From Heliopora coerulea (taxonomy: Eukaryota > Cnidaria > Anthozoa > Scleralcyonacea > Helioporidae), in assembly GCA_030142905.1 (NCBI GenBank), contig JASJOG010000052.1, positions 887,001-951,000 on the forward strand: a DNA stretch of 64,000 nt, read 5' to 3'. The notes under the pieces are model-generated. The model worked only from the letters and a program-made list of their open reading frames with translations, made no database searches and was not told where the DNA came from. Of this stretch, positions 4,593 to 57,001 are shown in pieces; positions within the stretch are counted from its first letter, which is position 1; every line of letters begins with the position of its first letter. A program made the translations under genes and the position numbers.

Positions 4593-5475
4593 CTAATTGC
4601 ATACGTTCACGTTGGTTGTAAACATCCTCCAAAATGCCTTCCGGTACGTCCCGACTCTCCATATATATATTACTGGGTTGATGATGAAGTTCAGTAATTC
4701 AAAAATAAACAAACACGAATAAAAGTATGATATAACCGGAGTTCTGATGACAGTTCCAATTTGAAACTCGGCACCTGTTCATTATTACATCCAATACTAG
4801 ACAAGGTCCACATGTGGCAAACATTATCATCGCCAATAATACAGAAAGTGAACAAGCCTTATTGTAAAGGCGCCTGGGCGCTTCCTGATTCTGTGATATA
4901 GCCGCTGACCTTTGTCTTTCGACCTGAAGTCTCCAGGCAATGTACATGTAAACTAACACGACGAGTAGGCAAATAAACAAGATGACAAGTACGTTGAAGA
5001 ATTGAAAAGACAAAGACGAGAAGTAGTAGTATTGAATGACAGAGAGTGAAAGTGCTGTTATCCAAATGCTTAATATAGCCAATAAAATTCTTTTAATGGT
5101 CAAGATGTTCTTCGATGCATAAGGCTTTGTTATGACAACAGCCCTTTCAATGGCCATGAGAAGTATTGCTGAGAAAGATGCACGCATTGCAGCATTACAT
5201 ACAACAATAAATACTTTGTAATGAAACAGGGCGATTACTGAACAAAACAGAGTTAAACCAAACATAGTGTCCGCCATTGCCCGGTTTACCACATGATAGG
5301 TGATCCGCTTACGCTTGACGAGGTCTCTATTTCTTGCAAGAACGACCAAGAAGGCGGCATTGAGGATGAATGAGACACAAGCCTGGCTGATGACCACTCT
5401 ACGGATGACTGTAAAATCTTTCTCATTGCGGACCAGTGTTAAATATGTCGCTTTAAAGGTAGGGTTTTTGCGCAT
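4593..5475 (-). pseudogene. Class A GPCR copy 1, frameshifted before TM7
   Basis: The ATG at 5475 is at the same place as in the intact copies. The protein is about 95% alike to copy 2 through TM6 (MAD of TM2, ER at the TM3 end, CGPC in TM6). A 2-bp deletion near 4750 (GATGACAGTT where copy 2 has GATGACACAGTT) shifts the frame, and translation stops at 4699 after 258 residues. The TM7 NPxxY and helix-8 coding sequence still exists downstream in another frame, ending at the ancestral TAG (4593-4595); the total span is exactly 2 bp shorter than copy 2. The N-terminal sequon present in other copies (N8) is K here. If translated it would lack TM7 and is unlikely to signal. Confidence 0.88.
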
Positions 5476-5518
5476 TTCTTTTCTATTTTAAACAAAGAAG
5501 AGAAATATCATTTAAAAG

Positions 5519-5600
5519 TTCGTTAACTCTCTCCTATCCAGAGGTCTCCGTTTGGTCAGTAAAATTGTCTGGCGTTATCCGAAAAAGAAACTAAGAGAAG
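5519..5600. repeat. Scrap of a dispersed TTAA-type repeat upstream of receptor
   Basis: GTTAACTCTCTCCTATCC and CAGTAAAATTGTCTGGCGTT resemble the better preserved element in the NUP188 intron at 62839-62944 (TTAACCCTTTAC, GAGTAAAATCTTCTGGCGTT). Equivalent copies lie 40-120 bp upstream of the ATG in all units (about 18022, 34530, 44395, 52287, 57046). It is too degraded to show termini. Confidence 0.45.
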
Positions 5601-6065
5601 ACCAATCTGGACAATAAGGAATTTGATCGTGATTAATAAAAACTTCACCCAGGGTTATCATGAATGTAGACTGATTTAAAAGTCCAACTAACATTTTTTC
5701 AACGAATAGATCGTATCGATAGTTCAGGTGCGAATCTTCAGGAGGGATGCAGGTAAGGCTTTCCACAAGATCTTCGGCAACTTTTTGGCAACTTTTCGTA
5801 TTACAAGCAATTTTTTTTGTTTTGGGCAACGTATTTCGTTCTGAGGAATTCCTATCTATTTTGAGAAATAGGAGGAACTTTGGCCTTTGAATACTTAAAT
5901 TGATCTTGATTCCTTATTTCACAGTGGTAGTTCTTAGACTATTTATTTCTTGTGCAAAAGGGAAGTTGGTCTTGCTCGGCTGATCAGCGGTTTTTTAAAG
6001 AAAATTCAAAATGACGGACGAATATTCGCGCTCGACTGAATGGATCAGTGAGTGAATCAAGCGAA

Positions 6066-6466
6066 GAAGGTCCATTGAACTCTAAAAAGACTGGAACGAT
6101 ACCTGGAAACTGTATTTTGAAGCCATCGTGGAGGCTGACATGTAGGTCAATTTTTGATGGTCATCCTAGTCCCTTACGCAATAAAACACGCAACCTATTG
6201 TGAAAAACATCACCGAAATCTCGGATTTTTGACAGTTTTCTTTTTTATCCATAGTAAGTAGAGGAAGATGTCGGTAGGACTGCATAATTGTCAGAATTAA
6301 CTGTCAATGAAAAGTAAAGGTTTAATACAACTTTTCCGCATGCGTGTTTTTGACCTACATGGCTGCCCCCATGTCGGCTTCATTCAGTCGTGAAGCCTGG
6401 TACTACGAGGTATCGTTCGAGTCTTTTTAGAGTTCACTGAGAAGGTCCTGCAGATCCTTTGAGGAT
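6066..6466. repeat. Imperfect inverted repeat flanking zinc-finger remnant, unit 1
   Basis: The left arm (about 6066-6146: GGTCCATTGAACTCTAAAAAG ... GACATGTAGGTCAA) is the inverse of the right arm (about 6345-6466: TTGACCTACATGGC ... GTCTTTTTAGAGTTCACTG). The loop is about 200 bp. The same structure is at about 18571-18965, 34958-35345 and 44940-45325. Confidence 0.65.
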
Positions 6467-6474
6467 AACAACAG

Positions 6475-7048
6475 AAGCAGGAGGAAGGCTGAGTACTCCA
6501 AAGAAAACGGCCATTTCAAGAAAACGTAAAGTGCAGACAAACCCACCTGAAAAGAAGCGAAATGTCCCGTGGCACAGCCGATCCAAATGTGAGTGCTTGG
6601 GATAGATTAAATCAGTTCAAAGGAAAGCATCTTACTGTAGTGTCGGGTAAACTCAGATGTGATGCTTGCAAGGAAACCTTGTGCAAAAAGAACGGCTCTG
6701 TTATTAAGCACATAACATCCCAGAAACATTAAATCAAAGGAAGTTATAGCGGAAAGCAAGAAAAAAGACCAGAGTATTGTTGACTTGGTGAAAAGTAACG
6801 ACAAACAAATGAATCCCAAAGGATCAGCACTACCCAAAGATATGAGACTGGATCGATACGAGCTTCTGGAGTCTTTACTGATTGCAGGAATACCCATATC
6901 GAAAGTCGACAATCAGAGAATATTTCTGGAAAAGTATGGCCACCATCTTAAATCCTCAAGTCATTTGACAGAACTCATCCCACTGATTCTGAAGAGAGAG
7001 AAGGATTGTGTTAAATCTGAAATTGGTACAAAGAAAAGTGGGATTTGA
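6475..7048 (+). pseudogene. CGGBP1-like / hAT-type zinc-finger protein remnant, unit 1
   Basis: Reading frames, joined only by frameshifts, give STPKKTAISRKRKVQ, then WDRLNQFKGKHLTV with C-x2-C and H-x5-H (LRCDACKETL ... IKHITSQKH). A conserved C-terminal part follows (6785-7048: RYELLESLLIAGIPISKVDN, FLEKYGHHLK). This is the layout of the BED-like zinc finger and helical tail of CGGBP1 and related hAT-derived DNA-binding proteins. The frame breaks just after the second zinc-binding His (CAT TAA), so it cannot make one protein. It was probably a transposase N terminus or domesticated gene before the array expanded. Confidence 0.6.
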
Positions 7049-8684
7049 GGACAAGTTTACTTGTTTCTATCAACTTTTATTGCAGTTAAATTGCATGAAA
7101 ATGGTTAGAGTTCTTCATGTGTACCCTTAACGCTGATAAATACATTTTTTTAGTTTTAATTGAGGGCAAAGTTATTTAGCAAGCTTGTTACAGCGCAAAA
7201 TTCAACGAAAATGCTTAGAAATCTTACTTTTCTTGTACAATTTGGATATTTTTCCTTCATACCAAAAAAAAAAAAGAGATCAACCTTCGTTGCAGGAAAA
7301 GCAACATTCTGGTTTTTTTGAGGAACTTTTGAGCAACATTTTGATAAATTACGGGCAAATTTCTCAGAAATCTTGGGCAATTTGTTACGGCGGTTTCTGG
7401 ATTTTTTTAAATTTTCTGAAAAGATTTTTATGAAAAATAATTTGCTCGAATCTCGTCGAAAACCAGTTTAGGTTCTTTACAACTGGTAATATACCAAGTT
7501 GTAAATACGTGCTTTTCAAAAGCCACATGTTTCAAACGAAACAACATTAAATAAACACAAGAAAAATGACAGACAACGAAGGAACTAGGAGAAACAAGTG
7601 AACACCTTGAGACATTAGGATCCATATTTTATGGTAGTTGTATGATATATGTATATTCCACTTTCCTGTCACTAGCATTTACTAAAGAGCTACTGAACAT
7701 TTCAATTGACCGTTGACTTATTTTTCTAAATGTCAAAGAAAATGAAACGCATTATAAAACCAATTAATAAGGAGCTGCAGGATAAAATAAAAAAATTGTC
7801 CAATATCGCTGGCACATCTTTCCAGGTTCTTGAAATTTTCAAGTATTCCTAACAATTTTTTGTTTCGCCAGTTCTCACAAGTCAACAATGATCATCACAT
7901 TACATCAATCCAACGTGAAATGGGTCGATATGTTTACGAGTAAAAAGATCCTGTTTATAAATTATCTGGACACTTCCTTGTAATGACAAAAAGAGTTTCA
8001 GGTCGAATTTCTAACTTTAACTGTTAATTGCCACCGTGTGGCTTGTTCGTATGACTCGTTATTCATTAAAAACTAATCTTCTCGTCAATTTTGTTTTGGA
8101 ATATGATTTTCCATGACCAGAAAACTGCCAGATTTGTCTAGCGTTAAAGCAATGAGTGGTAAATATTGTTAAAGCCTTTTTTACACACATTATGTGTCCA
8201 AAGTTCATTCCCAAGATGATTTTATTTGTCGTACCAGCGTGTCAGAAATAATGAGTTAGTCTTTTAATTGAACAAAAAGTTGGTAAATAGTTAGAGAGAA
8301 CACGTTTTATAATGGCTTGTCGTTGGAATAAGATGAAAATACTTGAACCGGCCTCAAAAATTTTTCTATGTTTATTTCTAAATTCTGTCTTTTTAAACTT
8401 TTATTAAGGCTTAACCTTCGATTTGTTGTTGAATTTGATTTAAGCTTAAAATGCAGATTGACTTACCAGTTAAGAAGATTCACGTTGGCTAGTTTAACGT
8501 CTTTTGTCAGACGCAGATCATACGACGTTACTGTTGATTCAATTCAGCTATATGGTGGGATGAACACAATTAACCTGTTTATATTTGAAGACCATCTGTG
8601 TGACATGGCTAAGTGACAAAATTAACCAACTGCAGCCATCTATCAATCAAATTTAGGCACGTTCTTTAGGTGCTTCATCAAAAG

Positions 8685-9149
8685 GAGTGGCAACCGGGGT
8701 GTATTCGGAGCACGTGCCCCCCAACCTTTTTGAAACGACCAAAAGTACCCTTTAAAAGTATGAAATGTGCCCTTTTTAAAGAAATGCCTTTTCATTACCA
8801 AGTGTAACGAATCAGTTTGTGTCGTCTTACTTGGGTTTATAGATTAAGACGTACATAGGAATATGAAAAACAATCCCACATTGGACAACATCACTTTTCC
8901 TCTGATGTCAGTCTAACCACGTCAGAGAATCCCGACGTATCATCACATACTAATCAAACCATAGAATCGGTAAAGCCAGCAACATTGGACAAAGATCTCG
9001 TTTGACTAAAATACGACCTCGATGAAAAGAACAGGTATGAGAGAAGTTATCTATTTTGAGGGTGCACTTTCCCTTGCACAAAATGCCTCCAAAATGTTTA
9101 ACCGCCCTCCCTCGCCCCCTGAAACTTAGATATGCTTCTTACGCCACTA
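8685..9149. mobile_element. Nonautonomous hAT-like element, unit 1
   Basis: The left edge GAGTGGCAACCGGGG and right edge CTTACGCCACT resemble hAT termini (CAGTGGCGTA and its inverse). Inner ends have the usual C-runs (GTGCCCCCCAACC, CCGCCCTCCCTCGCCCC). There is no transposase frame. A target-site duplication is not clear. Confidence 0.55.
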
Positions 9150-9480
9150 ACTGTATGGGAATAAGAAGGAATAGTAAAAGCGTTTTTTTGCAGACATACT
9201 ACAGTTGAACATTAAGCAGAATAGTATTTTGGCTTTTCTACTCACGGTTGCAGAATATTTGGAATATGGAGTTTAAACACGGTTTTTAACTATGATGATA
9301 CCATGGTGATTGGTAACATACAATAAAGTAAGAGAAAACGAAATAAACGCACTAAAAAAGGTATACACACTTACCAAGATTTAGGTACTGCTGGACCGTT
9401 TAATTCTTGAGAGAACTGTATGAAAGTTAAAGAGAGGTAAACTACTACGTAAAGAGTAAGCCTGAAGAATTAAGGAAAGG

Positions 9481-9600
9481 CACGATGTAGTTTGATCCTA
9501 TCACCCAGTCTCTGATTAGTTCTACCCAAATAGCGAGATCCACATTCGCATTTAAATTCGTAAACAAGACAACTCGATGAAGAAGCAGGCAGAGACTATT
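9481..9600 (-). pseudogene. Penelope GIY-YIG endonuclease scrap, unit 1
   Basis: The minus strand encodes VYEFKCECGSRYLGRTNQRL, the opening of the GIY-YIG nuclease of Penelope-like retroelements (VY for the first motif, YLG for the second, with the catalytic Arg region GRT). Only this start is kept. Confidence 0.65.
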
Positions 9601-10027
9601 TGTGAGTGGGTGGGACGAACTTAACCATCTGCTGCCATCTATCAATCAAATTTAGGGGTTTTTCTGTAGGGACGGTTTCGGACTAAGAATGAACGGTTAA
9701 AGCATTATTTTGAAGACACACTACGGTTGAACATTTGACAGAATTGTATTTTGGCTATTCTACTAGCGGCTGCAGAATATTTAGAACATGGAGTTGCAAT
9801 TAAGTTTTGTAGTGATAAAGTCCACTCACTGATCAGGAGTATTCCTAAGATGGCGAAATCTACATGAAGACACTCGATATCTGACATGAACATCGTTAAC
9901 ATTTTGGGGAGGACACGGCTAAAAGTTGGGCACAGGTACCGCTATCTTAGGGCACGGCACGGGTAGTTTTCACAGTGTAAACGGTACGGCTCATTGAAAT
10001 TAGGTATCCATGCCTGAAAATTTAGCA

Positions 10028-10062
10028 GTGCCGAACACTTCTGTATATGTAAGTGTCGGCAC
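10028..10062. repeat. Conserved hairpin, unit 1
   Basis: GTGCCGAACACTT and AAGTGTCGGCAC form a 12-bp stem with one bulged A around CTGTATATGT. It is flanked by direct repeats of CAGTGTAAACSGT (about 9979 and 10094). Confidence 0.75.
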
Positions 10063-10675
10063 GGTTGATTTAGCGTGCATTGCCCAAAATGTTACAGTGT
10101 AAACCGTTAACGTGGTTGAAGACACGAGTCGGAACAGAGGGAACATGGGGTCACGTTTCTCCCACCTTTTTTAAAAGCGTTGTTTGTTGTAGGAGGATAT
10201 GCCCTTCAAATTTAGAGAAGACATTGAGACTATAGATTTAGTGAGATACTGTGTTTGAAGGTGTCCTTTCCGTATGCAAAAGTACCTCGGGAACTTTGTG
10301 CCCGCACTAATTTGAATTTGCTTCAAACGCCTCTGCCATTGACCTTAGTGGCTTTATCGGACAAAAATTTTATAGTTTTTAGAACTGTTTTGACTTAAGA
10401 TCCATCTATATTTCTGCTTGAGCTTTACAAAACTAGTAGAACCTTCTTTGCAAGGTAAACAGGAAGATGCTGTAAAAACAGATTGCTGCGCTTGGAAGTG
10501 TTAAGGTTTTAAAAAACCCAAAGAGTAAGGGATAGCTGATATGCGTTAGTCGTAGGCTGGCAGCACGTCAGAGCTGTCACTTTTCAAGTAGAACATGTAC
10601 TTAGATGTACGCCACCTGGTGTGGTATCATTTATGTTTATTGTGACACTACGTGTTGTTGTCTCCTTTTAACACT

Positions 10676-10740
10676 TCGCTGACGGTAGTTCTACCATGAA
10701 CGAGTAAAATGGTCTTGTGGTAGACCGAACAAAATAATCC
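10676..10740. repeat. Second scrap of the same dispersed repeat in unit tail
   Basis: CTGACGGTAGTTCTACCATG and CGAGTAAAATGGTCTTGTGG belong to the same family as the scrap upstream of the receptor and the element at 62839. Matching copies are at about 23577, 28643 and 38095. It includes the short inverted repeat GGTAGTTCTACC. Confidence 0.4.
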
Positions 10741-12924
10741 AGGGTCGCCAAAAATCTTGAAGAAAATAACATTTATCTTAGAAGACTGTCTGAAGTTTAC
10801 GAATAGCTCGCTCTATTTGGTGTTCACATATATTGGGTTGCGTTATAGGATTTTCCACAATGCCATGTGAAATGTAAAGATGAATATTACGATTTGGGGT
10901 GTAATTATTTTGTTTTCCTTTTATCTAAACTCACTGTATTGGACCAAAACAGGTACGAAAACTAGAACCCATGTTTGCGGTGATACACATAATGATCATG
11001 TTTCTCCATGAGTGGATTTTTGACACAATGGGCAATATTATTGGGCCAGTATTTCCGACTATCGCCCGTTTACTGTTTTAAACTTAATATCGAAAAGAGC
11101 ACTGTCCTGTGGCGATTTTAACCAGATGGAGAATGTGCAATTGCCATCTTTATGACGTGTCATAATTGTCATCATGATGTTGTTATAAGTGGAAATATCA
11201 CTTCATAACATGCCGTGGTGGTGAGGGAGTGGCGAAAATGATCATAGCAACTGGTCATGCTATGCAAATTTTAGATTATTTATGTATTGCAAAAGCTCAT
11301 GCTATACAAATATAAAATTTAGACATTAAGCACAACATATCCATCGACAAGTATTTTTGTTAAAGTTTCTAGACGTGCTTCGCACAATCACCAATTTGAC
11401 CACTATTCGTTGTATTTTGTTATAATAACCACTGGGTTGGTAGATGTATATGGCTTGCTTCCTGAATATCGTAGATTATTTTGAATTTGCAATTAATGAG
11501 CTGAAGAAGGAACAAAATCGTGGCATTGAGAACGAATGAGAGCAGCCTCGGTAATGATCATTCCCGAGAAGAGTAGGGGAGACTGTGGTCTCTTCTATAT
11601 TCTGGGTAAAGGGTCGTTTATATTCTAGGTAAAGGTGATAAAGATTCCTTTTCTTGGTTGTTCAAACACAATAGGTTAAATAGTGTATCATTCGAAGTTT
11701 CAACGACGTATACGACGTTCCGTAACGGTCAAAATTATGAAAGTAATAAAAATCTTAAACTTTCTTAATAAAATTATCATCAAAGTTAGTAGAAAATTGT
11801 CGAAACTTGCTCACGAAAAACGAAACGTTCAAAATTATTATCAAGCCCTTGAGGAATTAGTCCAATTTTGAAAATTTAATGTCAAAGCTCCATGTTTGTA
11901 TTCATGTGCTTAATTCTGTCTGAACAGTGAAAAACTCGAAATTGAACTAATCCTTTAGGATACATAATGAGAAACGACTAAAGAATGCCGAATTGACGTA
12001 AAATAAACCGAATAACGACGAGAAAAATAGAAAACGCCAACAAATATAACGAACATCTAATAATGATAGCCAGGTGTTAACGAATGCACCGAACGGGAGA
12101 ATTTTGATCGAACTTCACAAGGATCAATAGATACACTCACAAATCATTTGCACGAAAGTGAAATCGCGTACATTCATCGGAAGTTGCATAGTACCCATAT
12201 TTAGCAGTGATATTAGCAGTGATACTAGGTTAGTTTTTCTTGACAAAAACTTCATCTTGCAGGAATAAACGTTGAGATAGTAAAAACAAAGTGAAGAGCT
12301 GTAATAAAAGAAAGTTATTTCATTACTTAAATGTCGATCAGCAAATTGTTCAGAGGAAAAACTGGCAACGGACTCAAAGGAACATGTGCACAACTACAGA
12401 GGGGTTCAGGAGTTTGGAGAGCTCGACTCAGGCAGTTTTTAAGGGTGGTCGCATGTGTGCCGTGTTAGCGAAAGATTTTAGCCCTAGAAGGCCATCTTTC
12501 ATCAGGAGAATTTTGTTGTGCGAATCGATAAATCCATCATAAGTTCCAGCCGAAAGCTCATGAGAGAAAAGAAATGATCTCTTCCCGCAAAGAAATTGTC
12601 TAGTGGAAAACGGCCTTATTTCGCAAACTTACGTAGATCTGCTGCACTCAAAATGATCAAAATCGCACAGACGGTGCTATGATACTTCCCTCTGACTCCT
12701 GACCCTGCCTATCGAAATTCTTCGTTGCGCACCTAAGGAATATTAATCCGTAAAATCTAAAATAAAGAAAAACCCAAAGGGAATCTTGATTACACTCCGA
12801 TGTTGTCATTCTCCCATGGTAGACAAAATCATTAAGTTATAATGGAAGTGTTTATATGGAGGCGACCCAGTTCTCTTGTTAGGACTAACCCTAGTATGAG
12901 GGCTGGATTTCACGTCCCTTTTAT

Positions 12925-13269
12925 GTGAGAATGCTCTTGCCGTGCTCTTGCCCTACTAGGAGGACTGGGTCTTGCACAACTGCAGAAGCATCTTCTTACA
13001 ATTTCTCTGCAGCTAACGACGTTCATCGCTTGAATTTTCGAACAACATGGTCTTTTGATTGTTTGGAAAATGAAAGAGCTGAACAGAAACAACCAGTTAT
13101 TTTCCTAGTTTATGAACCATGTCAGCAGTCTCACGAAATTATTTCTTTTGCAATGTTACCTGTGTCGGCGCCTCACATTACAATGGGTATACTGTATTAC
13201 GTTTCGCGAGAAAAGGTCAAGTTTATAACACATATCACCCATATTTACAAGTTGTGGACGAATATTTGA
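12925..13269 (+). other. Repeat-unit ORF of 114 codons, coding status doubtful
   Basis: Begins MRMLLPCSCPTRRTG and ends FITHITHIYKLWTNI. Related ORFs occur at 1569-1886 (105 codons), 40407-40751 (114) and 48651-48974 (107); in unit 3 (from 30537) it is broken. The C-terminal 60 codons are well conserved, while the first 45 vary with many amino-acid changes. No domain, signal peptide or membrane segment is recognised. It may simply be a chance frame in a duplicated sequence. Confidence 0.2.
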
Positions 13270-13329
13270 AATTTAGTTAAGAACCAGAAGCCAGAGCCAG
13301 CCGACAATTGGAAAAAATACAAGATAATA

Positions 13330-13538
13330 CATATTCCGAAGAGGAACATCTTGAAAACCCAGAAGAATATGAGTGAAAATCCGGACGAAAGTTGAATCAG
13401 TAATATATCCGTTTTACTTCAAAACCGTCATCAGAAAAATTCATTATTTTGAAATAAAACCGAAATATTGCTGATTCAACTTTCGTCTTGATTTTGACTC
13501 GTATTCTGAGTTTTGAAGATGTTCCTCTTCGGAATATG
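13330..13538. mobile_element. Foldback element Y, unit 2 copy
   Basis: Same arms and position as the unit 1 copy, with scattered substitutions (for example GTTTTACTTC in the left arm). Inserted at the same place, so it predates the duplication. Confidence 0.75.
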
Positions 13539-13926
13539 TTTGATCTTGCATTAGTTAACAAACGCTGACAGTCTTTGTTTTTGCCTCTGGACCCAAGTCA
13601 GCCTGAACTCCACATTTTCCACAAATTCAAGGTGCCGTGATTACACGTGGTAATCAATTAGTCATGGAAATGCAAGGTTAAAAATAAATTGAAAAAGAGT
13701 TGTATTGACTCGTGACTAAGATTAAAGACTGTTATGGAGGAGACTGTCAGTATCAAATTTAGGTCGATCTGTTATAAAGAAAGAGTTTCTTATGGTGAAA
13801 ACCTTCAGGGGGTTTCCATTTTCAACATTTAGTATAAGGTGGATTCCCTCCAGGATTTTACAAAATGCATGGCTTTGAACGGTTTAATGTACATGGTTTG
13901 TGAGAGTCACTAGCTGATTATTAATC

Positions 13927-13959: not shown

Positions 13960-14045
13960 TACTAATCTTGACGTGCGTGGAGTCCTTTTACACGCGTGAT
14001 GATTACTAGGGAGAAAAATTTTCGCTTTGAGTATGTATCTTTCTT

Positions 14046-17093: not shown

Positions 17094-17978
17094 CTAATTG
17101 CATACGTTCACGTTGGTTGTAAACATCCTCCAAAATGCCTTCCGGTACGTCCCGACTCTCCATATATATATTACTGGGTTGATGATGAAGTTCAATAATT
17201 CAAAAATAAACAAACACCATCTAATGTATGATATAATTGGAGTTCTGATGACACAGTTCCAATTTGAAACTCGGCACCTGTTAATTATCACATCCAATAC
17301 TAGACAAGGTCCACATGTGACAAACATTATCATGGCCAATAATACAGAAAGTGAACAAGCCTTATTGTAAAGGCGCCTGGGCGCTTCCTGATTCTGTGAT
17401 ATAGCCGCTGACCTTTGTCTTTCGACCTGAAGTCTCCAGGCAATGTACATGTAAACTAACACGACGAGAAGGCAAATAAACAAGATGACAAGTACGTTGA
17501 AGAATTGAAAAGACAAAGACGAGAAGTAGTAGTATTGAATGACAGAGAGTGAAAGTGCTGTTATCCAAATGCTTAATATAGCCAATAAAATTCTTTTAAT
17601 GGTCAAGATGTTCTTCGATGCATAAGGCTTTGTTATGACAACAGCCCTTTCAATGGCCATGAGAAGTATTGCTGAGAAAGATGCACGCATTGCAGCATTA
17701 CATACAACAATAAACACTTTGTAATGAAACTGGACGATTACTGAACAAAACAGAGTTAAACCAAATATAGTGTCCGCCATTGCCAGGTTTGCCACATGAT
17801 AGGTGATCCGCTTACGCTTGACGAGGTCTCTATTTCTTGCAAGAACGACCAAGAAGGTGGCGTTGAGGACGAATGAGAGAGAAGACTCTGTCATCATCAC
17901 TCTACTAAAGGCTGTAAAATCTTTCTCATTGCGGACCAGTGTTAAATATGTCGTATTAAAGGTAGGGTTTTTAGACAT
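17094..17978 (-). CDS. Rhodopsin-like (class A) GPCR copy 2, intact, orphan
   Basis: Single-exon 294-residue seven-helix receptor. Visible marks are: sequon N8-T-T in a short extracellular N terminus; TM1 about 27-48 with N39 (1.50); TM2 LAMAD with D69 (2.50); E110-R111 where DRY is usual; W138 (4.50); P224 (6.50) in TCGP, so the usual tryptophan at 6.48 is C; N267-P268-V-I-Y271 in TM7; basic/aromatic helix 8. The usual TM3 cysteine (3.25) and an ECL2 cysteine are absent, ECL2 is very short, and there is no TM5 proline. In known families this set occurs in the melanocortin/S1P/cannabinoid/adenosine group, so a MECO-like plasma-membrane receptor is inferred; the ligand is unknown. An AATAAA lies on this strand about 500 nt past the stop (16588-16593). 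Confidence 0.87.
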   Translation of the reverse strand: MSKNPTFNTTYLTLVRNEKDFTAFSRVMMTESSLSFVLNATFLVVLARNRDLVKRKRITYHVANLAMADTIFGLTLFCSVIVQFHYKVFIVVCNAAMRASFSAILLMAIERAVVITKPYASKNILTIKRILLAILSIWITALSLSVIQYYYFSSLSFQFFNVLVILFICLLVVLVYMYIAWRLQVERQRSAAISQNQEAPRRLYNKACSLSVLLAMIMFVTCGPCLVLDVIINRCRVSNWNCVIRTPIISYIRWCLFIFELLNFIINPVIYIWRVGTYRKAFWRMFTTNVNVCN

Positions 17979-17984: not shown

Positions 17985-18020
17985 TCTATTTTAAACAAAG
18001 AAGAGAAATATCATTTAAAA
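17985..18020 (-). promoter_or_regulatory. Acceptor-like pyrimidine-AG just 5' of receptor ATG
   Basis: On the minus strand, TTTCTCTTCTTTGTTT is followed by AAAATAG and then, seven bases later, the receptor ATG. This matches a 3' splice site and would join an untranslated upstream exon to the coding exon. The same sequence stands in front of all six receptor copies (for example 5482-5515, 34493-34530, 44357-44390, 52250-52285, 57008-57045). No upstream exon or branch point was identified. Confidence 0.4.
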
Positions 18021-24475: not shown

Positions 24476-24616
24476 ACCAGCGATTTACTGGGTGGAAAGC
24501 GAAGGCGTAATATAAAAATAAGAGCCCAGCTCAAAATTCTCACAATTTTAACTAATGTCTCTTTCTGTGAGAATTTTGAGCTGGACTCTTATTTTTATAT
24601 TACAACCTGAGTTCAA
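24476..24616. mobile_element. Short foldback insertion Z in recombinase 5' region
   Basis: A 36-bp arm (24508-24543, TAATATAAAAATAAGAG...) is inversely repeated at 24567-24602 with one mismatch. The insertion is flanked by ACAACCTGAGTTCAA at 24461-24475 and 24602-24616. The shorter recombinase copy at 29521 has a single ACAACCTGAGTTCAA and no insertion. Confidence 0.8.
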
Positions 24617-25810
24617 GCTCTTCCGAGACAGTTTAGGTGCCGAAATGAAAAGACTTACCTCAGAAGGCTTTGGGGTAGAAGTGAAACAGGCCGAACCATT
24701 GAGCAGAGAGGAAGAAGATATTCTTTGGCGTAAACATTATCTTGGTGGAAGTAACCGTCGAAATTTGTTAGATACGATGGTGTTCTTACTAGGAAGATGC
24801 TTTGTATTAAGGGAAGGCAAAGAACATCGTGGATTAAAGTTTAAACAGCTGTCCTTGATCGAAGGTGCTGATGGGGCACCAGCGAAGTTATGTTACTGTT
24901 CATTTGGCGAATAGAATAACAAGGGAGGACTAAAAGATAGAAGGTACAAGCCGAAACGTATTGAGCACCATGCGAATATGAACAATCCATACAGATGTGT
25001 TGTACAATTTTATAAACAATACTTAGCCAGAGGGTAAGTTTGTTTTTGATATGTGTATAAATTGGCCTCTTTAGCTTCGTATGTGAATTGTTCAATTTCG
25101 GACGACGAGATGTACGGTTTATCATTCTAATCACTATGCTAGGATGCGTATCTCAAGATCATTCAATACAAGAGAATGAATTTTCCTGATTATCATTACG
25201 TGATGTGAAATGGGTAAACAAATTTCAAAGCTAATGGAGACCATGTTATGTTATAATGTATTTTTAAATGGGCCCAAAGTATTTAGTGACTGAGTAATTG
25301 TCTGAATATTATAATAGTCCTGTAGAGGGTGTAAATGGCCCATTCTATCTGCGCCCTGAAGGGAAGTGTAGTGACGATGCTGGTGCCACATGGTATTTAA
25401 ATGTGTTTGTCGGACATAATACGCTGGGAAATACCGTGAAAAGATTGGGTAGAGATGCCGGCATAACGGGAAACAAAACTAATCACTGTCTTCGAGCTAC
25501 AGCAGCAACGCGAGGTTTGGATGTGGGCGTTCCGGAGAAGATGTTACTGGAAAGAACAGGGCATCGTTCAGTTGATTCGTTGCTCCGCTATCAGCGACCA
25601 TCAGAAGAACAAAAGGCAATGGTATGGCATGCTCTTGATGATGGTAAGAGATTGAGTGAACTGAGGAGTGAAGATTTGCTAAGTTTGAAACGGTCGTGTG
25701 TTGCACAGAACGAAGAAAAGGAGGGGAAAGTAGTTCCTATGGCGAGTTGCCATGGGAATGTTATTACCTTTCAAAACTGTACTATGAACATTAATAATTT
25801 TAACGTCTAA
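24603..25810 (+). pseudogene. Tyrosine recombinase (KIAA1958/Crypton-like), two exons, one in-frame stop
   Basis: Exon 1 reads FRDSLGAEMKRL, VEVKQAEPLSREEEDILW, then LLDTMVFLLGRCF and GKEHRGLKFKQLSL, the core-binding and early catalytic region of this family. A TAG at 24912-24914 interrupts what should be ...GEx NNKGGLKDRRYKPK. After 25033 a GTAAG donor and an AATAG acceptor (25317) bound a 284-bp intron that keeps frame (YLAR-G-PVEGVNGPFYL). Exon 2 has TNHCLRATAATR (H-x-x-R), ERTGHRS (GH) and SLLRYQRPS with the likely nucleophile Tyr, so the catalytic end is intact. The upstream start is not resolved. Only the single stop (and any missing N terminus) disables it. Confidence 0.75.
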
Positions 25811-48900: not shown

Positions 48901-50923
48901 TGGGGAAACTGTATTACGTTTCGAGAGAAAAGGTCAAGTTTATAACCCATATCACCCATATGTACAAGTTGTAGACGAATATTTGAAGTTCAGTTAAGAA
49001 CCGCTGACAGCCTTTGTTTTTGCATGTGGACCCAAGTCAGCCAGAACGTTACATTTTCCAGTACTAGAAGAAGCCGTGATCGCACGTGGTAATCAGTGAT
49101 GGAAATGGCAGGTAAAAATGAATTTAAAAGAATTGTATTGGCTCGTAACTAAGATTAGGGACTGTTTATAATGCTGGAGACTGTCAAAATCGAATTTAGG
49201 GCGATCTGTTGCAAAGAAAGAGCTTTTAATGGTGAAAACCTACACGGAGTTTCCCATTTTCCCATTCAGTATAAGCTGGATTCCCTCCAGGTTTTTCCAA
49301 AATGCATGGCTTTGAACGGTTTAATGTACATGGTTTGTGAGAATCACGAGCTGATTATTCGTTAAACAGTAGAGAATTACTACTACAGACAATAGAAAGG
49401 CGTCATACGGAGCCTTGCCATAAGCTACGGCCACGGTGTTGAATTGTCTGACCGTAGACATGTGGATAAATCAATGTTTTGAGGTCTCATGTTAGTTTAG
49501 GTTTACGTCTTATAGTTATGTCTTGCTTTTGTGTCGTACTCAAGAGTTGGAAATGGCGAGAAATACGGGAATTGCTTTATAGTTATTTGTCTACAATGGA
49601 GGTCTTCCGGACGTGTGCATGCTTTTGTTGTAAATAACGGGTAGTTTACCGCAGCAATGAGTAAATATTTTTCAATTTCACTGATCCTTGTATGCCTGGG
49701 TTGTTTTAAGTAAAAAAGTCGCATGCCAAGTCATTGAAGCAAATTCCAACTTTGCTGAGCATTGCAATTCCAACTTTTGTAATCACAACTTATCACTAAT
49801 CAATCATTAATTACTCCTTCTCAAAGAAAACGAACCACTGCCACCCCTTTTTTTTAACAGAAAAAAATGCATCTTTTATTTACAAACATCAGGTGATAAT
49901 AAGAAAAAAATTACCTTAAACTTTCATGATGACATAGTGGACAGGATGGAGAGAATATTCCCCTATCTTAGATAGAATATACAGCACATTATCTGCTGGA
50001 TAAGTTATTAATTTTGGGCTTCACACACTTTGGAACTGAAGGTGCTGGTAGTTTTTCCCCAAGCTCGACAAGGTGCAGGATCACCTACATGTGGGATCAC
50101 TGAGAAAGAGAGTAGCCAGGACAACTATTCCAGTGACAAAGCCATGCTGGGGACCCGGAGAGTCTACGTGGCGGCAGGTGTGCCAAGGAAGAACGATATT
50201 TCTCAAACTCATTAATAATTCATGAGTATATCATTCAATCAGATGCGCTGAATGGCACCACGTGAGAGAACTTCAAATACCATGAAAGTACTGGACAAAG
50301 GACTTGAACTGTTTTTTCCAGTCCTTGCACTGGAAATAATAGTTCAAGTCCTTGGACCTAAAATATAATTTTGCACAATTAGTTTATTTATCAATTCACT
50401 CATTACTAATACACTGATTCATTGTGCCAATACATTAGCTTATTCTGAGAAGTCATTCAAAGGCCTCTAATTCGGACTAGACCGGGTTTTCAAGAACTTG
50501 AAATTTGTTCCAATTTGCCTCGGATTAGAACGAATTCGTCGTACTTGAAAATCCAGTCTAGTCCTCATTGTCAGCCTTTAAATATTACATAAAGGGTAAA
50601 ACAGGACATGTAAGGGTATACAATCCTTCGTTAGAACTTATGGTTGCTGTAAACTAAAGCCACCAGACATTGACTAAAGCAAAACTTGCAAAATGCCAGT
50701 TTGGTATTGAATAGTTTAATGATATTTACGGTAGTTATTCTATGAGCAGATCGTGAACAATGGCAAAGCTCGCACCCCCAAGTTGACTATCGCTAAAGCG
50801 AGTTGACGAATTGTTTTAGTATAAACTTGTCGTTTTTTAATTTTTAGTTCGATTTCTACGCCAAACTTAGCATAGTTTTGCGATTATCATCTTTTTGAAA
50901 ATATCCCCTTATAATAATTTCAC

Positions 50924-51116
50924 ATGTCATTTCACGCACGAAAACGATACTTCACATGTGAAAATATTTGAATTTCATATGTGAAATCAAATTTCATATG
51001 TGAATCTTCCATTTCATATGTGAAATACATGTTGCGTACAGCAATATTTCACATTTGAAATTTCGAACCAGGCCATTTTCACATGTAAATTAGGCATTTC
51101 ATAAGTGAAAACTTTC
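50924..51116. repeat. Palindrome cluster, unit 5
   Basis: The best preserved cluster, with successive TTCACATGTGAAA, TTTCATATGTGAAA and TTCATATGTGAA words. Confidence 0.82.
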
Positions 51117-51340
51117 CAATTTCATACCATATGGACCGATGAAGAGTAGGTCTCACTGTACCTCCAAGTAGAACAGGTTAGCTAGCTGACATGGTTATCC
51201 AGTATAAATAAAGACACTTTATCCTATAGGTCCATTCGACTATGGCGACGTCATTTTATATTTAATATCAGCGGATAGTCAATGGTAGGGTAGGCAACGA
51301 AACTCACCGATTATTCATGATACGAAACGGCAAATCCATT

Positions 51341-52243
51341 CTAATTGCATACGTTCACGTTGGTTTTAAACATCCTCCGAAATGCCTTCCGGTACGTCCC
51401 GTCTCTCCAAATATATATTACTGGGTTGATGATGAAGTTCAGCAATGAAAAAGTATACAGACACGTTTCAGTGTATAACATAAACGGAGTTTTAACACAG
51501 TTCAAATATGAACGACTGCAGCTTAACAATATCACATTGAATAGTTGAGAAGGTCCACCAGTGACAAACACTATAACGGCCAAAAATACAGAAAGAGCAC
51601 AAGCCTTATTGTAAAGGCGCCTGGCCGGTTTCAGATTCTGTGATATAGCCGCTGACATTTGTCTCTCGACCTTAAGTCTCGAGGCGATGTAGATGTACAG
51701 TAACGAGTTTAGCAAGCCAATAAACAAGAAGAAAATGAATCTGAAGAATTGAAAAGACGTAGACCAGGAATAGTAGTAATGAATTGGAGCGAGTGAAGGT
51801 TCTGTTATCCAAGTACTTAATATAGCCAACAAAATTCTTTTAATGGTCAAGATGTCCTTCCATGTATCAGGCTTTGTTATGATTACAGCCCTTTCAATGA
51901 CCATGAGAAGTATTGCTGATAAAGACGCAGTAACTGCACAATCATTTACAAGAATAAACACTGTATATTTCTGTATCAACCCTGCATATGATGATTTGAC
52001 GATTTCTTGACAAAAAAGACTTAAACCAAACATAGTGTCTGCCATTGCCAGGTTTGCCACATGATAAGTGATCAGCTTACACTTGACGACGTCTCTGTTT
52101 CTTGCAAGAACGACCAAGAAGGTGGCATTGAGGACGAATGAGACACAAGCCTCGGTCATCACCACTCTACCAATGACCGTAAAATCTTTCTTATTGTAGA
52201 CCACTCTTGAATATGTCGTATTAAAGGTAGCGTTTTTGGGCAT
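51341..52243 (-). CDS. Rhodopsin-like (class A) GPCR copy 5, intact, long-ECL1 subtype
   Basis: 300 residues. The N terminus has two sequons (N4-A-T and N8-T-T). TM2 carries LAMAD, TM3 ends in ER, TM6 has TGGP (no tryptophan at 6.48) and TM7 has NPVIY followed by RDGTYRKAFR. Compared with copy 2 it has about six extra residues in the TM2-TM3 loop (around SSYAGLIQKYTVF), shared only with copy 3. The TM6/ECL3 region (YLNCVKTPFMLYTETC) also resembles copy 3 more than copies 2 and 4. The different extracellular loops suggest ligand preference could differ from the short-loop subtype; this is inference. Confidence 0.86.
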   Translation of the reverse strand: MPKNATFNTTYSRVVYNKKDFTVIGRVVMTEACVSFVLNATFLVVLARNRDVVKCKLITYHVANLAMADTMFGLSLFCQEIVKSSYAGLIQKYTVFILVNDCAVTASLSAILLMVIERAVIITKPDTWKDILTIKRILLAILSTWITEPSLAPIHYYYSWSTSFQFFRFIFFLFIGLLNSLLYIYIASRLKVERQMSAAISQNLKPARRLYNKACALSVFLAVIVFVTGGPSQLFNVILLSCSRSYLNCVKTPFMLYTETCLYTFSLLNFIINPVIYIWRDGTYRKAFRRMFKTNVNVCN

Positions 52244-53456
52244 TTCTTTTCTATTTTAAACAAAGAAGAGAAATATCATTTAAAAGTTCGTTAACTCTCT
52301 CCTATCCAGAGGTCTCCGTTTGGTCAGTAAAATTGTCTGGCGTTAGTCGAACAAAAATAACAGAAGACGAATCTGGAAAATAAGGAATTTAATCGTGATT
52401 AATAAAAATTTCGCCCAGGGTTATCGTGAATGTAGACTTACTTAAAGGTGCAACCAATATTTTTTTAAATAAAAGATCGTATCGATATTTCAGGCGCCCA
52501 TCTTAAGGAGGGATGCAGGAGGTGAGCATATTCCTCCTGAAGAGATAAAGCAGGATAAAGAAAAAATTGTGCAATATCGCTGGCATATCTTTCCAGGTCC
52601 TTGCAATTTTCAAGTATTCCTAACAATTTTTTGTTTCGTCAGTTCGCACAAGTCAACAATAATCATCACATTACATCAATTCAACGTGAAATACGTCCAT
52701 ATATTTATGAGTAAAAAGATCCTTTTTATAAGTTATCTGGACACTTCTTTCTAATGACAAAAATAGCTCCAGCTCGAATTTCTAACTTTAACTGTTAATT
52801 GCCACCGGGTGGCTGGTTCGAATGACTCTTTATTCATTAGAAACTAATTTTCTCGTCAATTTTGCTTTGGAATATGATTTTCCACGATCATAAAAATGAC
52901 AGATTTGTCTAGCGTTAAACCAATGAGTGGTAAATATTGTTAAAGGTTTTTTACACTCATTATGTGTCCAAAGTTCTTTGCCAAGATGATTTTATTTGTC
53001 GTAGCAGCGTGTCGGAAATAATCGGTTAGTCTTTTAATTCAACAAAAAGTTGGCGAAATATTACAGAGAATATATTTTATGATGGCTTGTCGTCGCAATA
53101 AGATGAAAATAGTTGAAACGGCCTCAAAAATTTTTCTATATTTATTTCTAAATTCTGTCTTTTTAATCTATATTAAGGCTTAACTTTAGATTGGTTGTTG
53201 AATTTAATTTAAGTTTAAAATGCATATTGACTTACCAGTTCTGAAGATTCACGTTAACTGGTTTGATGTCTTTTCTCAGATGCCGATCATACGACGTTAC
53301 TGTTGATTCAATTCAGCTATATGATGGGATGCACACAAATAACCTGTTTATATTTGAAGACCATCTGTGTGATGTGGCTAAGTGATGAACTTAACTATGT
53401 GCTGCCATCTATGAATCAAATTTAGGCACGTTCTTTACGGACTGCATCCATACGCG

Positions 53457-53964
53457 TCGGAATCTGGGGCATCCTGAGTACGTGCACCCCCAAACCTTTT
53501 TAAAACGACCAAAAATACCCTTTATAAGAATGAAATATGCCCTTTTTAAAGAAATGCATTTTTATTACGAACTGTAACGCACCAGTTTGTGCCATCTTGC
53601 TTGGGTTTATTGATTAAAATATACATAGGAATATGAAAAACAAACCCATATCGAACAACATCACTTTTACTCTGATGTCAGTCTAACCAAGAAGCTAGAG
53701 CTTTTCTTGTTGAATTAGTAGCTGAGAATCCTGACGTATCATCACAAACTAATCAAACGATAGAATCGATAAAGCCAGCAACATTGGACAAAGATCTTGA
53801 AGCTTACGATTTTCAGTTTCACTAAAATACAACCTCGGTCAAAAGAACTGGTATGAGAGATGCTATCTATTTTGAGGGTGCACTTTCCCTTGCACAAAGG
53901 TGCGTCCGAAAGGTTTTGCCGTCCCCCTCCCTACTCAAACTTACATTTGTTTCCTACGCCACTG
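53457..53964. mobile_element. Nonautonomous hAT-like element, unit 5
   Basis: Right end CCTACGCCACTG; left end decayed (GTCGGAATCTGGGGC). Same internal sequence as unit 2, including AAGAAGCTAGAGCTTTTC. Confidence 0.58.
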
Positions 53965-54417
53965 ACTGTATGGGAATAAGAAGGAATGGTAAAAACGTTC
54001 TTTTGCAGACATACTACAATTGAACATTAAGCAGAATGGTATTTTGGCCATACTTCTCACGGTTGCAGAATATTCGGAATATGGAGTTTAAACGCGGTTT
54101 TTAACTATGCTGATACCATGGTGATTGGTAATATACGATAAAGTAAGAGAAAACGAAATAAACGCACTAAAAAAGGTATACACACTTACCAAGACTTAGG
54201 TACTGCTGGACCGTTTAGTACTAAAGAGAAGTGCAATAACTTTAAAGAGAAGTAAACTACTACGTAAAGTGTAGGCCTAAAGAATTAAGAAAGAACACAA
54301 TGTATTTTGCCAGACGACTTATCATGTGCCAGACGTCTTCTGAGTCGAAAGAAATTTATCGCCTGTATATATAGTCTCCAAAACCTGATGACATCAACCC
54401 GAAGCTTTGCGGGAGGG

Positions 54418-54800
54418 TCAAAATAGGGCTAGCTGGAAGACAAATTCCTTTTGCCAGCACAGATCCGGATCATTAAGTTTTATGTAAATGGCTTCCATCA
54501 ATTTTAGTTGAAAGGCGGAACGACATTTGTAAAGAATTCTAAAATTACCGTTTGAGTAGGTTTCAGCAGCAGACTTATTAGATCCAAGGTGTTTGCCAAC
54601 AGCTGAATCGCAGCTGATGAAATGGCTATATCGGCATTGTCGTTCTAGTTGTGGACGTGATGGCTGAGTTTTATTTGTAATGACGCTATGAGGATGTTTG
54701 ATCCTATCACCCAGTCTCTGATTAGTTCTACCCAAATAGCGAGATCCACATTCGCATTTAAATTCGTAAACAAGACAACTCGATGAAGAAGCAGGCAGAG
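54418..54800 (-). pseudogene. Penelope GIY-YIG endonuclease remnant, unit 5 (longest open)
   Basis: It is open from the conserved CxCG start through LGRTNQRLGDRIK, SAVGKHLGSNKSAAETY, GNFRILYKCRSAF, LMEAIYIKLNDPDLCWQK and FVFQLALF to the stop at 54418. Some histidine-rich spacer is shortened. The nuclease fold could in principle be complete, but there is no reverse transcriptase or start codon, so it is a relic of a Penelope-like retrotransposon copied with the unit. Confidence 0.72.
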
Positions 54801-55234
54801 ACTATTTGTGAGTGGGTGGGACGAACTTAACCATCTGCTGCCATCTATAAATCAAATTTAGGCGTTTTTCTGTAGGGACGGTTTCGGACTAAGAATGAAC
54901 GGTAAAAGCATTATTTTGCAGACACACTACGGTTGAGCAATTGGCAGAATAGTATTTTGGCTATTCTACTAGCGGTTGCAGAATATTTGGAACATGGAGT
55001 TTCAGTTACGTTCTGTGGTGATAAAGTCCACTCACTGATCGAGAGTATTCCTAAGATGGCGACATTTACATGAAGACACTTGATATTTGACATTAACAAC
55101 GTTAATATTTTAGGGAGGACACGGTTAAAATGTGGGCACGGGTAGCGCTATCTTAGGGAACAGCACGAGTGGTTTTCACAGTGTAAACGGTACGGACTCA
55201 TTGAAATTAGGTATCCATGGCTGAAAATTTAGCA

Positions 55235-55269
55235 GTGCCGAACACTTCTGTATATGTAAGTGTCGGTAC
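55235..55269. repeat. Conserved hairpin, unit 5
   Basis: Same stem; the right arm reads AAGTGTCGGTAC. Unit 6 has only a degraded version near 59457-59500. Confidence 0.68.
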
Positions 55270-55751
55270 GGTTAATTTACCGTGCAGTGCCCAAAATGTT
55301 ACAGTGGTAACCGTTAACGTGGTTCAAGACAGGAGTCGGAACGGAGGGAACACGGGGTCACGTTTCTCCCACCTTTTTTAAAAGCGTTCTTTGTTGTAGG
55401 AGGATGTGCCCTTCATGTTTATAGAAGACATTGAGAGTAAAGATTTAGTGAGATACTGTGTTTGAAGTGTCCTTTCCGTATGCAAAAGTATCTCGGGAAC
55501 TTTGTGCCTGCACTAATTTGAATTTGCTTCAAACGCCTCTGCCATTGACCTTAGCGGCTTTCTCGGACCAAAACTCTCCTGTTTTAAAACTCTTCTAGTT
55601 TGAGATCCATCTATATTTTAGCTTGAGCTTTACAAAACTAGTAGAACCTTGTTTGCAAGGTAAACAGGAAGATGCTGTAAAAACAGAGCTGCGTTTGGAA
55701 GTGTTAAGTTTTGTGATTATCATCCGTTTGAAAATATCCCCTTATAATAAT

Positions 55752-55900
55752 TTCACATGTCATTTTACGTACGAAAACGATACTTCACATGTGAAAATGT
55801 TTCAATTTCATATGTGAAATCGACTTTCGTATCTGAATCTTTTATTTCATATGTGAAATACATGTTGCGTACAGCAATATTTTACATGTGAAATTTTGAA
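55752..55900. repeat. Palindrome cluster, unit 6 (shortened)
   Basis: TTCACATGTGAAA and TTTCATATGTGAAA words are present, but the last part of the cluster is deleted. It lies only about 40 bp after the unit 5/6 junction. Confidence 0.8.
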
Positions 55901-56113
55901 CCATATGGATCCATGAAGGGTGGCCCTCACTGTTCCTCTTAGGAGAACGACTTAGCTAGCTGATATGGTTGTCCACTATAAATAAAGACACTTTATCTTA
56001 TAGGTCCATTTGACTACGGCCATGTCATTTTATATTTACTATCAGCAGATAGTCAATGGTAGGGTAGGCAACGAAAGTCACCGATTATTCATGATACGAA
56101 ACGGCCAACCATT

Positions 56114-57001
56114 CTAATTGCATACGTTCACGTTGGTTTCATACATCCTCCAAAATGCCTTCCGGTACGTCCCGACTCTCTCTATATATAGTACTGGATT
56201 GGTGATGAAGCTCAGCAATGAAAAAATATGCAGACACGGATGAATGTATAATGTAAACGGAGTTCTGATGACACAGTTCAAATATGAAGACAGGCACCTG
56301 TACAATATCGCACTGAATACTAGATAAGGTCCACATGTAACAAACATTATCATGGCCAATAATATAGAAAGTGCACAAGCCTTATTGTAAAGGCACCTGG
56401 CCGCTTCCTGATTCTGTGATATAGCTGCTGACCTTTGTCTTTGGACCTGAAGTCTCCAGACGATGTAGATGTAAACTAAGACGATGAGCAAACAAATAAA
56501 CAACAACACAATGACGTTGAAGAGCGGAAAAGACAAGGACCAGAAGTAGTAATATTGAATGACAGCGAGTGAAAGTTCAGTTATCCAAATACTTAATATA
56601 GCCAACAAAATTCTTTTAATGGTCAAGATGTCCTTCCATGTATAAGGCTTTTTGATGACCACAGCCCTTTCAATGGCCATGAGAAGTGTTGCAGATAAAG
56701 ATGCACGCATTGCAGCATCATTTACAACACCAAACACTCTGGAATTAAGTATGTCGTTTTCTGCACAAAAACGACTTAAACCAAAGATAGCGTCTGCCAT
56801 TGCCAGGTTTGCCACATGATGGGGGATCCGCTTGCGCTTCACGAGGTCTCTGTTTCTTGCAAGAACGACAAAGAAGGTAGCATTGAGGAGGAATGAGAGA
56901 CAAGCCTGGGTCATCATCACTCTACGACGAAAGACTGTAAAATCTTTCTTATTGTAGACCAATGTTGAATATGTCATATTAAAGGTAGCGTTTTTGGACA
57001 T
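56114..57001 (-). CDS. Rhodopsin-like (class A) GPCR copy 6, intact, most divergent
   Basis: 295 residues. Two N-terminal sequons (N4-A-T, N8-M-T) are followed by TM1 with N1.50, TM2 LAMAD, ER at the TM3 end, TCGP in TM6 and NPVLY in TM7 with helix 8 RVGTYRKAFWRMY. It has one extra Arg in the N-terminal tail, and ECL1 is short like copies 2 and 4 but of different sequence. It is the last copy, in the shortest unit, next to the array edge. Because the preceding unit's tail is fused directly to the palindrome cluster, its 3' flank is shorter than in the other copies. Orphan receptor, MECO-like by the same motif losses as copy 2. Confidence 0.86.
   Translation of the reverse strand: MSKNATFNMTYSTLVYNKKDFTVFRRRVMMTQACLSFLLNATFFVVLARNRDLVKRKRIPHHVANLAMADAIFGLSRFCAENDILNSRVFGVVNDAAMRASLSATLLMAIERAVVIKKPYTWKDILTIKRILLAILSIWITELSLAVIQYYYFWSLSFPLFNVIVLLFICLLIVLVYIYIVWRLQVQRQRSAAISQNQEAARCLYNKACALSILLAMIMFVTCGPYLVFSAILYRCLSSYLNCVIRTPFTLYIHPCLHIFSLLSFITNPVLYIERVGTYRKAFWRMYETNVNVCN

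Follow-up and report, generated by a model that had tools for sequence, protein, structure and literature searches.

A tandem array of at least 41 MECO-like class A receptors in Heliopora coerulea, with selection centred on the extracellular half

By which receptors do corals and anemones sense settlement cues, prey, microbes and symbionts? To our knowledge this is largely open, and a 64-kb stretch of the Heliopora coerulea genome gives the question a concrete form. This stretch (the window: 64,000 nucleotides, contig JASJOG010000052.1 of assembly GCA_030142905.1, here contig 468:887,001–951,000) carries six related genes for class A G-protein-coupled receptors (GPCRs), which a sequence-only reading had described as a lineage-specific expansion resembling the melanocortin/cannabinoid (MECO) group, with unusual activation switches and possibly a chemosensory role. 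What are these receptors, and what drives their divergence? We find that the window is a slice of a much larger array, and positive selection on its receptors is the favoured explanation of how they diverge. On balance we lean towards a large tandem class A array that arose near the MECO stem and evolves like a chemosensory family, as far as sequence can suggest it.

The six copies lie on the minus strand where the sequence-only reading had placed them. All six match PF00001 (7tm_1), the class A (rhodopsin-like) family, at 36–48 bits, above the Pfam curated cut-off of 30.5 (for copies 1 and 3 the ATG-initiated parts were scored), and their aligned parts are 62–87% identical to copy 1, which excludes chance likeness. 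Four read from ATG to stop, as claimed: copy 2 (L009; 17094..17978; 294 residues, used here for residue numbering), copy 4 (L014; 43466..44350; 294 residues), copy 5 (L038; 51341..52243; 300 residues) and copy 6 (L027; 56114..57001; 295 residues). Copy 1 (L019; about 4593..5475) is open for 258 residues, after which a 2-base loss breaks the frame in the third extracellular loop (ECL3), and the C-terminal part, which includes NPVIY, is read in another frame (4596–4751). Copy 3 (L034; 33584..34486) is open over 300 residues and has ATA in place of the ATG start codon, as does its reciprocal best copy L036, 312 kb away. An AlphaFold2 model of copy 2 (mean predicted local distance difference test 73.9) has seven long helices and helix 8, and N-P-x-x-Y is found in all 20 intact copies of the array, as expected of class A. 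Position names such as 1.50, 2.50, 3.25 and 6.48 are our own assignment, for which we take N39, D69, R111, W138, P224 and P268 of copy 2 to be 1.50, 2.50, 3.50, 4.50, 6.50 and 7.50. On this numbering the reported motifs are borne out within the window: N1.50 is present, D2.50 occurs in five copies (His in copy 4), E-R replaces D-R-Y, position 6.48 is C, A or G (Gly in copy 5), the middle of transmembrane helix 5 (TM5) has no Pro, and neither C3.25 nor an ECL2 cysteine is found. The ECL1 of copy 5 is seven residues longer than that of copy 2.

A genome search places at least 41 copies, all on the minus strand, over about 546 kb of contig 468 (532,000–1,079,000). The six copies are therefore real, but they are the middle slice of an array that reaches both sides of the window; the expansion is lineage-specific in the sense of a large local one. 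The figure of 41 is our grouping of matches, and the counts are lower bounds. Among the 38 copies retrieved, 20 are intact and 15 broken; two (L034 and L036) have an open frame but no ATG, and one (L060), whose sequence was taken without its N-terminal end, is left unassigned. The remaining three, near 767, 802 and 965 kb, have fragmented matches. All 20 intact copies are open from the ATG to a stop codon, which in L031 comes ten residues late. With 41 copies, 15 of 38 broken and signs of block duplication, the array has the tandem birth-and-death pattern with many pseudogenes that marks chemosensory families. Elsewhere in the genome, the closest full-length relatives are 47% (contig 35) and 38–44% (contigs 768, 81 and 113) identical, and a fragment on contig 81 reaches 53%.

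Two lesions were each seen in several of the 38 retrieved copies. A (TA)n run in the NPVIYIW codons (window about 4658–4680 in copy 1, the same codons in other copies) is altered in length in five copies (L062, L028, L033, L021 and L026), all five broken; the run inside NPxxY is possibly a slippage hot spot, or the site of an assembly error. Three copies (copy 1, window about 4740–4760; L059; L063) lack two bases at one and the same position of ECL3, a gap that either spread by conversion or arose recurrently.

Is the array decaying or diversifying? Substitution rates were calculated by the Nei–Gojobori method (NG86) over the 190 pairs of the 20 intact copies, in regions fixed before the site tests. 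Overall dN is 0.136 and dS 0.141 (ω = dN/dS = 0.96), and codon model M0 gives ω = 1.17. The sequence-only reading had named a dN/dS near 1 in all copies, together with an absence of transcripts, as grounds against its interpretation. The average is indeed close to 1, but it masks two outer regions with values of about 2 and several cytoplasmic ones with values of 0.3–0.6. Thus, ω is 2.07 for residues 83–97 (ECL1 and the top of TM3) and 2.08 for residues 220–246 (the top of TM6 and ECL3), against 0.30 in the first intracellular loop (ICL1), 0.49 in TM2, 0.64 in lower TM5–ICL3, 0.53 in lower TM6 and 0.37 in helix 8. Residues 149–165 (ECL2 to the top of TM5) have an ω of 1.36, and the N-terminus, TM1, lower TM3 with ICL2, TM4 and TM7 range from 0.80 to 1.09. 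Because the average dN/dS hides opposite regions, it is the wrong test of that interpretation.

Codon site models were run on this one array with our own Python code, on trees built from the same data, with naive empirical Bayes posteriors. With a single tree, twice the log-likelihood difference (2ΔlnL) between M1a and M2a is 213.5, with ω = 5.4 for 16% of codons. As gene conversion is present (see below), five segment trees were used; 2ΔlnL is then 167.3, with ω = 4.6 for 18% of codons. M8a against M8 gives 168.1. Of 22 data sets simulated under the null, one was dropped for numerical overflow and the 21 finite ones reach at most 5.3. The outer-half codons alone account for a 2ΔlnL of 134.6 and the inner-half codons alone for 4.8. 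Over all 20 copies, ω is 0.50 in the inner half (codon bootstrap 0.36–0.70) and 1.47 in the outer half (1.08–2.01).

With the segment trees, 25 sites have a posterior above 0.9 (31 in the one-tree run). In copy 2 numbering these are residues 2, 16 and 25 in the N-terminal part; 79 (2.60), 86, 87, 90 (3.29), 93 (3.32), 94 (3.33), 97 (3.36) and 98 (3.37) in the top of TM2, ECL1 and outer TM3 (residues 79–98; 17685..17744, minus strand); 141 (4.53), 148 (4.60), 162 and 165 in outer TM4, ECL2 and outer TM5 (residues 141–165; 17484..17558, minus strand); and 225 (6.51), 229 (6.55), 232 (6.58), 233 (6.59), 236, 237, 253 (7.35), 254 (7.36) and 260 (7.42) in outer TM6, ECL3 and outer TM7 (residues 225–260; 17199..17306, minus strand). 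The extracellular half, which comprises 132 of the 294 residues, holds 24 of the 25 (Fisher test, 2e-8, a descriptive value, since the half boundary was drawn from the helix anchors after the 31 one-tree sites had been seen). Many of these sites are what we take to be textbook class A ligand-contact positions. On that understanding of the pocket, this array displays the pocket-centred positive selection of a chemosensory family, and the site tests agree with the proposal that the receptors may be chemosensory and diversifying in their ligands.

Flanking DNA gives a second yardstick. In the 11 copies with aligning 5′ flanks, flanking divergence is 0.062 (5′) and 0.050 (3′), dS is 0.093–0.107 and inner dN is 0.041, and outer dN (the TM2–TM7 parts) is 0.226, which is roughly double dS and four times the divergence of the flanks. 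As dS lies above the flanks, the latter may be constrained or homogenised, so the twofold factor is the safer one and the fourfold factor an upper figure. The 3′ flanks diverge by a mean of 0.089 (18 of 20 copies). A 5′ value over all 20 copies (mean 0.26) was discarded as meaningless, nine copies being unaligned there.

How did the array grow? Six reciprocal best pairs, 94.6–98.4% identical, lie in the same order and at similar offsets: L010/L009 (307 kb), L036/L034 (312 kb), L065/L066 (349 kb), L017/L012 (348 kb), L064/L011 (348 kb) and L021/L026 (335 kb). A seventh pair, L029/L027, lies at 269 kb and out of order, and further reciprocal pairs are 31–107 kb apart. We read this arrangement as a probable block duplication within the array, later rearranged. 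Pairs at similar offsets could also be an assembly artefact, contrary to which the second block has five extra copies between L034 and L066. The ATA start common to L034 and L036 and the frameshift common to L065 and L066 would be explained by a block duplication that copied dead genes with live ones.

The copies also bear signs of gene conversion or recombination. When the gene is cut into five segments, the first two (residues 1–111) reject the whole-gene tree (approximately unbiased (AU) test, P = 0.004 and 0.002), and the other three are compatible with it (P = 0.06, 0.22 and 0.15). Identical runs are longer than in permuted sites at P < 0.05 in 51 of the 190 pairs, where 9–10 are expected, and 12 of those 51 were never matched in 300 permutations. 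By eye, two database relatives (P0003 and P0004) look like mosaics of different array subtypes, as recombinants or a chimeric assembly might.

Other sequences are interspersed with the receptors. Open fragments of one repeated protein lie on the plus strand (L021:3170–3802, L013:3338–3880 and window 6716–7048), about 0.9–1.2 kb upstream of receptor copies and on the strand opposite to them; they match no Pfam family above cut-off and are apparently carried along in the repeat units. At 24552–25810 of the window, plus strand, two pieces match DUF3504 and Phage_integrase, which we take to resemble Crypton-type tyrosine recombinase elements.

From which receptors does the array descend? By profile, the nearest known receptors are those of the MECO group. 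A wider profile of 20 sequences, four of them window copies, finds 27 PDB sequences at E<1e-10, every one of them CB1 or melanocortin; CB1 scores 64 bits and the first other receptor, alpha-1A, 44 bits. A profile of the six window copies finds 33 PDB sequences at E<0.001 (13 melanocortin, 12 CB1, 4 CB2 and 4 alpha-1A), with MC4R best at 43 bits. EDG (S1P/LPA) receptors are absent from the best 60 of the 241 PDB matches of the wider profile. The same comparison gives no sign of membership in the vertebrate trace amine-associated receptor (TAAR), olfactory receptor (OR) or vomeronasal V1R families, as melanocortin and cannabinoid receptors lead the PDB chains and TAAR9 stands at row 56 of those best 60, at 35 bits; OR and V1R were not compared separately. 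Single-sequence searches are less clear than the profiles (the sole PDB match of the closest paralog, L051, is vasopressin V1a, and the distant paralog L058 finds galanin 1 first and CB1 second), so that the MECO placement rests on the profiles. Foldseek was set aside as a family test: it puts CB1 first, with S1P1, orexin and other receptors close behind at E-values within threefold, and so does not discriminate.

The suggested phylogenetic check was carried out in part, with a tree of 31 sequences: six of the 20 intact copies, eight paralogs, six of 22 distant database relatives, nine other receptors of the genome, CB1 and MC4R. Array, paralogs and database relatives group together at 100/100 (SH-aLRT/ultrafast bootstrap), and this family with CB1 and MC4R stands apart from the nine other receptors at 91.7/98. 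The grouping of CB1 with MC4R is weak (51.2/77), and neither nests within the receptor family. CB1 and MC4R adjoin the family, but with these two as the sole references, and neither EDG nor adenosine receptors nor human receptors from outside the group in the tree, the placement is not firm.

The absence of both P5.50 and the disulfide between C3.25 and ECL2 is a hallmark of the MECO group. In the array, none of the 20 intact copies has C3.25 or an ECL2 cysteine, and one (L027, near the top of TM5) has a Pro within residues 158–185. The sequence-only reading had counted adenosine receptors among the groups without these two features; adenosine receptors retain both, so that its list was too wide. 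The MECO-like ancestry itself is supported by the profiles, whose matches melanocortin and cannabinoid receptors lead. The W6.48 and D-R-Y of CB1 and MC4R are lost, however, W6.48 being found in none of the 20 intact copies. Without these motifs the receptors are not certain members of the group, and 'MECO-like' seems a reasonable label. A pair of cysteines in ECL3 is kept in 17 of the 20 copies, and the aligned MC4R sequence has two there as well.

Are the altered switches peculiar to the array? Position 6.48 in the 20 intact copies is Cys (13), Ala (3), Gly (2), Val (1) or Asp (1), the TM3 motif is E-R-A in 19 and E-K-A in one, D2.50 and R3.50 are each kept in 19, and P6.50 is also lost in four (L020, L022, L024 and L035). 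Database relatives below 50% identity (n = 22) have E-R in all 22 and, in the 17 with letters at 6.48, no W. The eight own-genome paralogs likewise have no W6.48, with E-R in seven and D-R-L in L057. As the loss of W6.48 is common to the relatives, it is older than the array; the switches that had been taken as a mark of the array are features of a wider family, and an array-specific loss was ruled out. That wider family without W6.48 (paralogs L051–L056, database sequences P0007–P0028) shares with the array E-R, non-W6.48 where readable and, in its aligned members, the core K/R-x-I/M-T-Y-H-V/I-x-N-L-A. Its members are 31–49% identical to copy 2, and those of this genome lie on contigs 35, 768, 81 and 113, with only a few on each. 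A one-residue deletion at 6.48, which the local match of F-V-T-C-G-P to F-V-V-C-W-A-P in MC4R would suggest, was also considered, but the multiple alignment is ungapped there. Thr at 6.47 in all 20 copies and the unchanged spacing from Lys 6.32 to Pro 6.50 (18 in both copy 2 and MC4R) make a substitution the likelier event. If these receptors work, the array is a natural set of class A receptors that manage without the W6.48 toggle, four of the intact copies lacking P6.50 too.

Each gene has a single coding exon, probably preceded by a 5′ exon. Upstream of copy 2, at 17986..18010 (minus strand), a pyrimidine tract followed by AG stands seven bases ahead of the ATG; we predict a 3′ splice site here and infer the 5′ exon from it. 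Tract and AG are kept in all 30 array copies for which the upstream sequence was available. Paralogs L054 and L055 (38–44% identity) have a similar motif before their ATG, and L056 has a looser one. At that place L052 has no AG, and L051, L053, L057 and L058 have no such motif. For the ATA copies L034 and L036, dN/dS is 0.46 from 6.5 synonymous and 10.5 nonsynonymous changes, too few to tell whether an upstream exon still supplies the start.

We propose the following sequence of events. From an ancestry near the melanocortin/cannabinoid stem, the repertoire would have turned over by tandem and block duplication, gene conversion and frequent loss of frame. Purifying selection would keep much of the cytoplasmic half (ICL1, lower TM2, TM5–ICL3, lower TM6 and helix 8), so that those copies that work could have one G-protein output in common, and selection would drive the ligand-facing extracellular half to change, so that ligands could differ from copy to copy. 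The output side would then stay largely the same across the repertoire while the input side varies, as in olfactory-type families. Working receptors, a shared G-protein output, external ligands and expression in sensory cells are what we infer from this pattern. More tentatively, the family may be an olfactory-type repertoire that a non-bilaterian animal built separately from those of vertebrates and insects, starting from a melanocortin/cannabinoid-like stem that no longer uses the W6.48 toggle, with the array as one main and still diversifying set; this wider proposal is possible rather than probable.

Several observations weigh against this view. Constraint outside the pocket is uneven (lower TM3 with ICL2 has an ω of 1.09 and TM4 of 0.96), and one selected site, 184, is cytoplasmic. 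Gene conversion can inflate site tests, and dS is nearly twice the flanking divergence in the 11 copies. Just 20 of the 38 retrieved copies are intact. Copy 2 searched by itself against the PDB finds an adenosine A1 chimera first (4.8e-7), then CB1 and MC4R. Finally, it is the sequence from which the chemosensor-like role is read; sets of immune or symbiont receptors, or receptors that co-evolve with endogenous ligands, would show the same pattern of selection.

Among the alternatives, the one that survives best, though we consider it unlikely, is an innate-immune or symbiont-recognition set, in which the pocket follows changing microbial or algal ligands and the receptors serve immune or gastrodermal cells. 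The observed selection would be equally expected, and in the available parts of coral genome papers amplified GPCR families are proposed to act in immunity or symbiosis (PMC10236652, PMC6208414); these are suggestions, however, and nothing pointing to immunity was seen in the locus. Class A pockets, moreover, suit small ligands better than the recognition of surface patterns. Somewhat less likely still are receptors that co-evolve with the animal's own fast-evolving peptides or lipids, such as hormone, gamete or self-recognition signals. An independent expansion of cnidarian peptide systems is described in the available part of one source (PMC11087051). For such receptors, about 41 copies, many of them broken, would be unusual. 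The nearest relatives by profile do bind ligands of this kind, peptides for melanocortin receptors and lipids for cannabinoid receptors. A decaying array under relaxed constraint, its ω signal an artefact of gene conversion or alignment, is very improbable: the 15 broken copies of 38 and two without ATG, the gene conversion or recombination within residues 1–111 (AU P = 0.004 and 0.002) and the mean ω of about 1 would suit it, but the inner-half ω of 0.50 (0.36–0.70), an outer dN of twice dS and four times the flanks in the 11 copies, for which relaxation alone is insufficient, and a signal that holds with segment-specific trees and null simulations all speak against it.

The site tests cover this one array. 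In the same genome, another tandem class A array has 17 copies (at least 75% identity) on contig 545 (1,583,800–1,743,500; 16 on the plus strand, one on the minus strand), with six related copies on contig 221 (276,000–315,500). The one copy viewed, L067, keeps C-W-G-P, has D-R-C and finds histamine H2 as its best PDB match. The contig 545 array would be a natural control for the site tests. A search for the GFP family yields one exon match, as would suit a cnidarian.

If the chemosensory reading holds, the array is a concrete candidate set for chemosensing: 20 intact genes that have most of their signalling face in common and in whose pocket selection has changed named positions. Tandem amplification of GPCRs has been reported in corals before: rhodopsin-like GPCRs make up 34 of 192 amplified orthogroups, in tandem and genus-specific, and their function is said to need more study (PMC10236652). 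In the available part of that paper they are given by orthogroup and domain, without subfamily, motif or site-level selection, as distinct from the array described here. Nematostella has more than 1000 GPCR genes, and most cnidarian GPCRs are described as still orphan in the accessible text of PMC11087051. Coral GPCRs or their expansions are mentioned in three further papers, none with site-level selection in the portions available (PMC9897584, PMC6208414, PMC11639872). Judged by title and the start of the abstract, the open-access papers listed gave no description of pocket-centred selection in a cnidarian GPCR array, which is not proof of absence.

How, then, does the array compare with known systems? 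The melanocortin receptors MC1, MC3, MC4 and MC5, together with CB1, are its best PDB profile matches and likewise have neither P5.50 nor the C3.25–ECL2 disulfide. The array differs from them in having no W6.48, E-R-A for D-R-Y and about 41 tandem copies; the relation is one of profile, and the tree gives no orthology to either. In its manner of evolution the array resembles the tandem chemoreceptor families, to which OR and V1R belong. The mammalian TAARs, another such family, also stand in tandem with many broken copies. Selected TAAR sites include 3.32, 3.33, 4.61, 5.38 and 5.42 in the available part of PMC4786312, and 3.32 and 3.33 are pocket positions under selection in the array as well. 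TAAR, OR and V1R receptors are of a different class A lineage.

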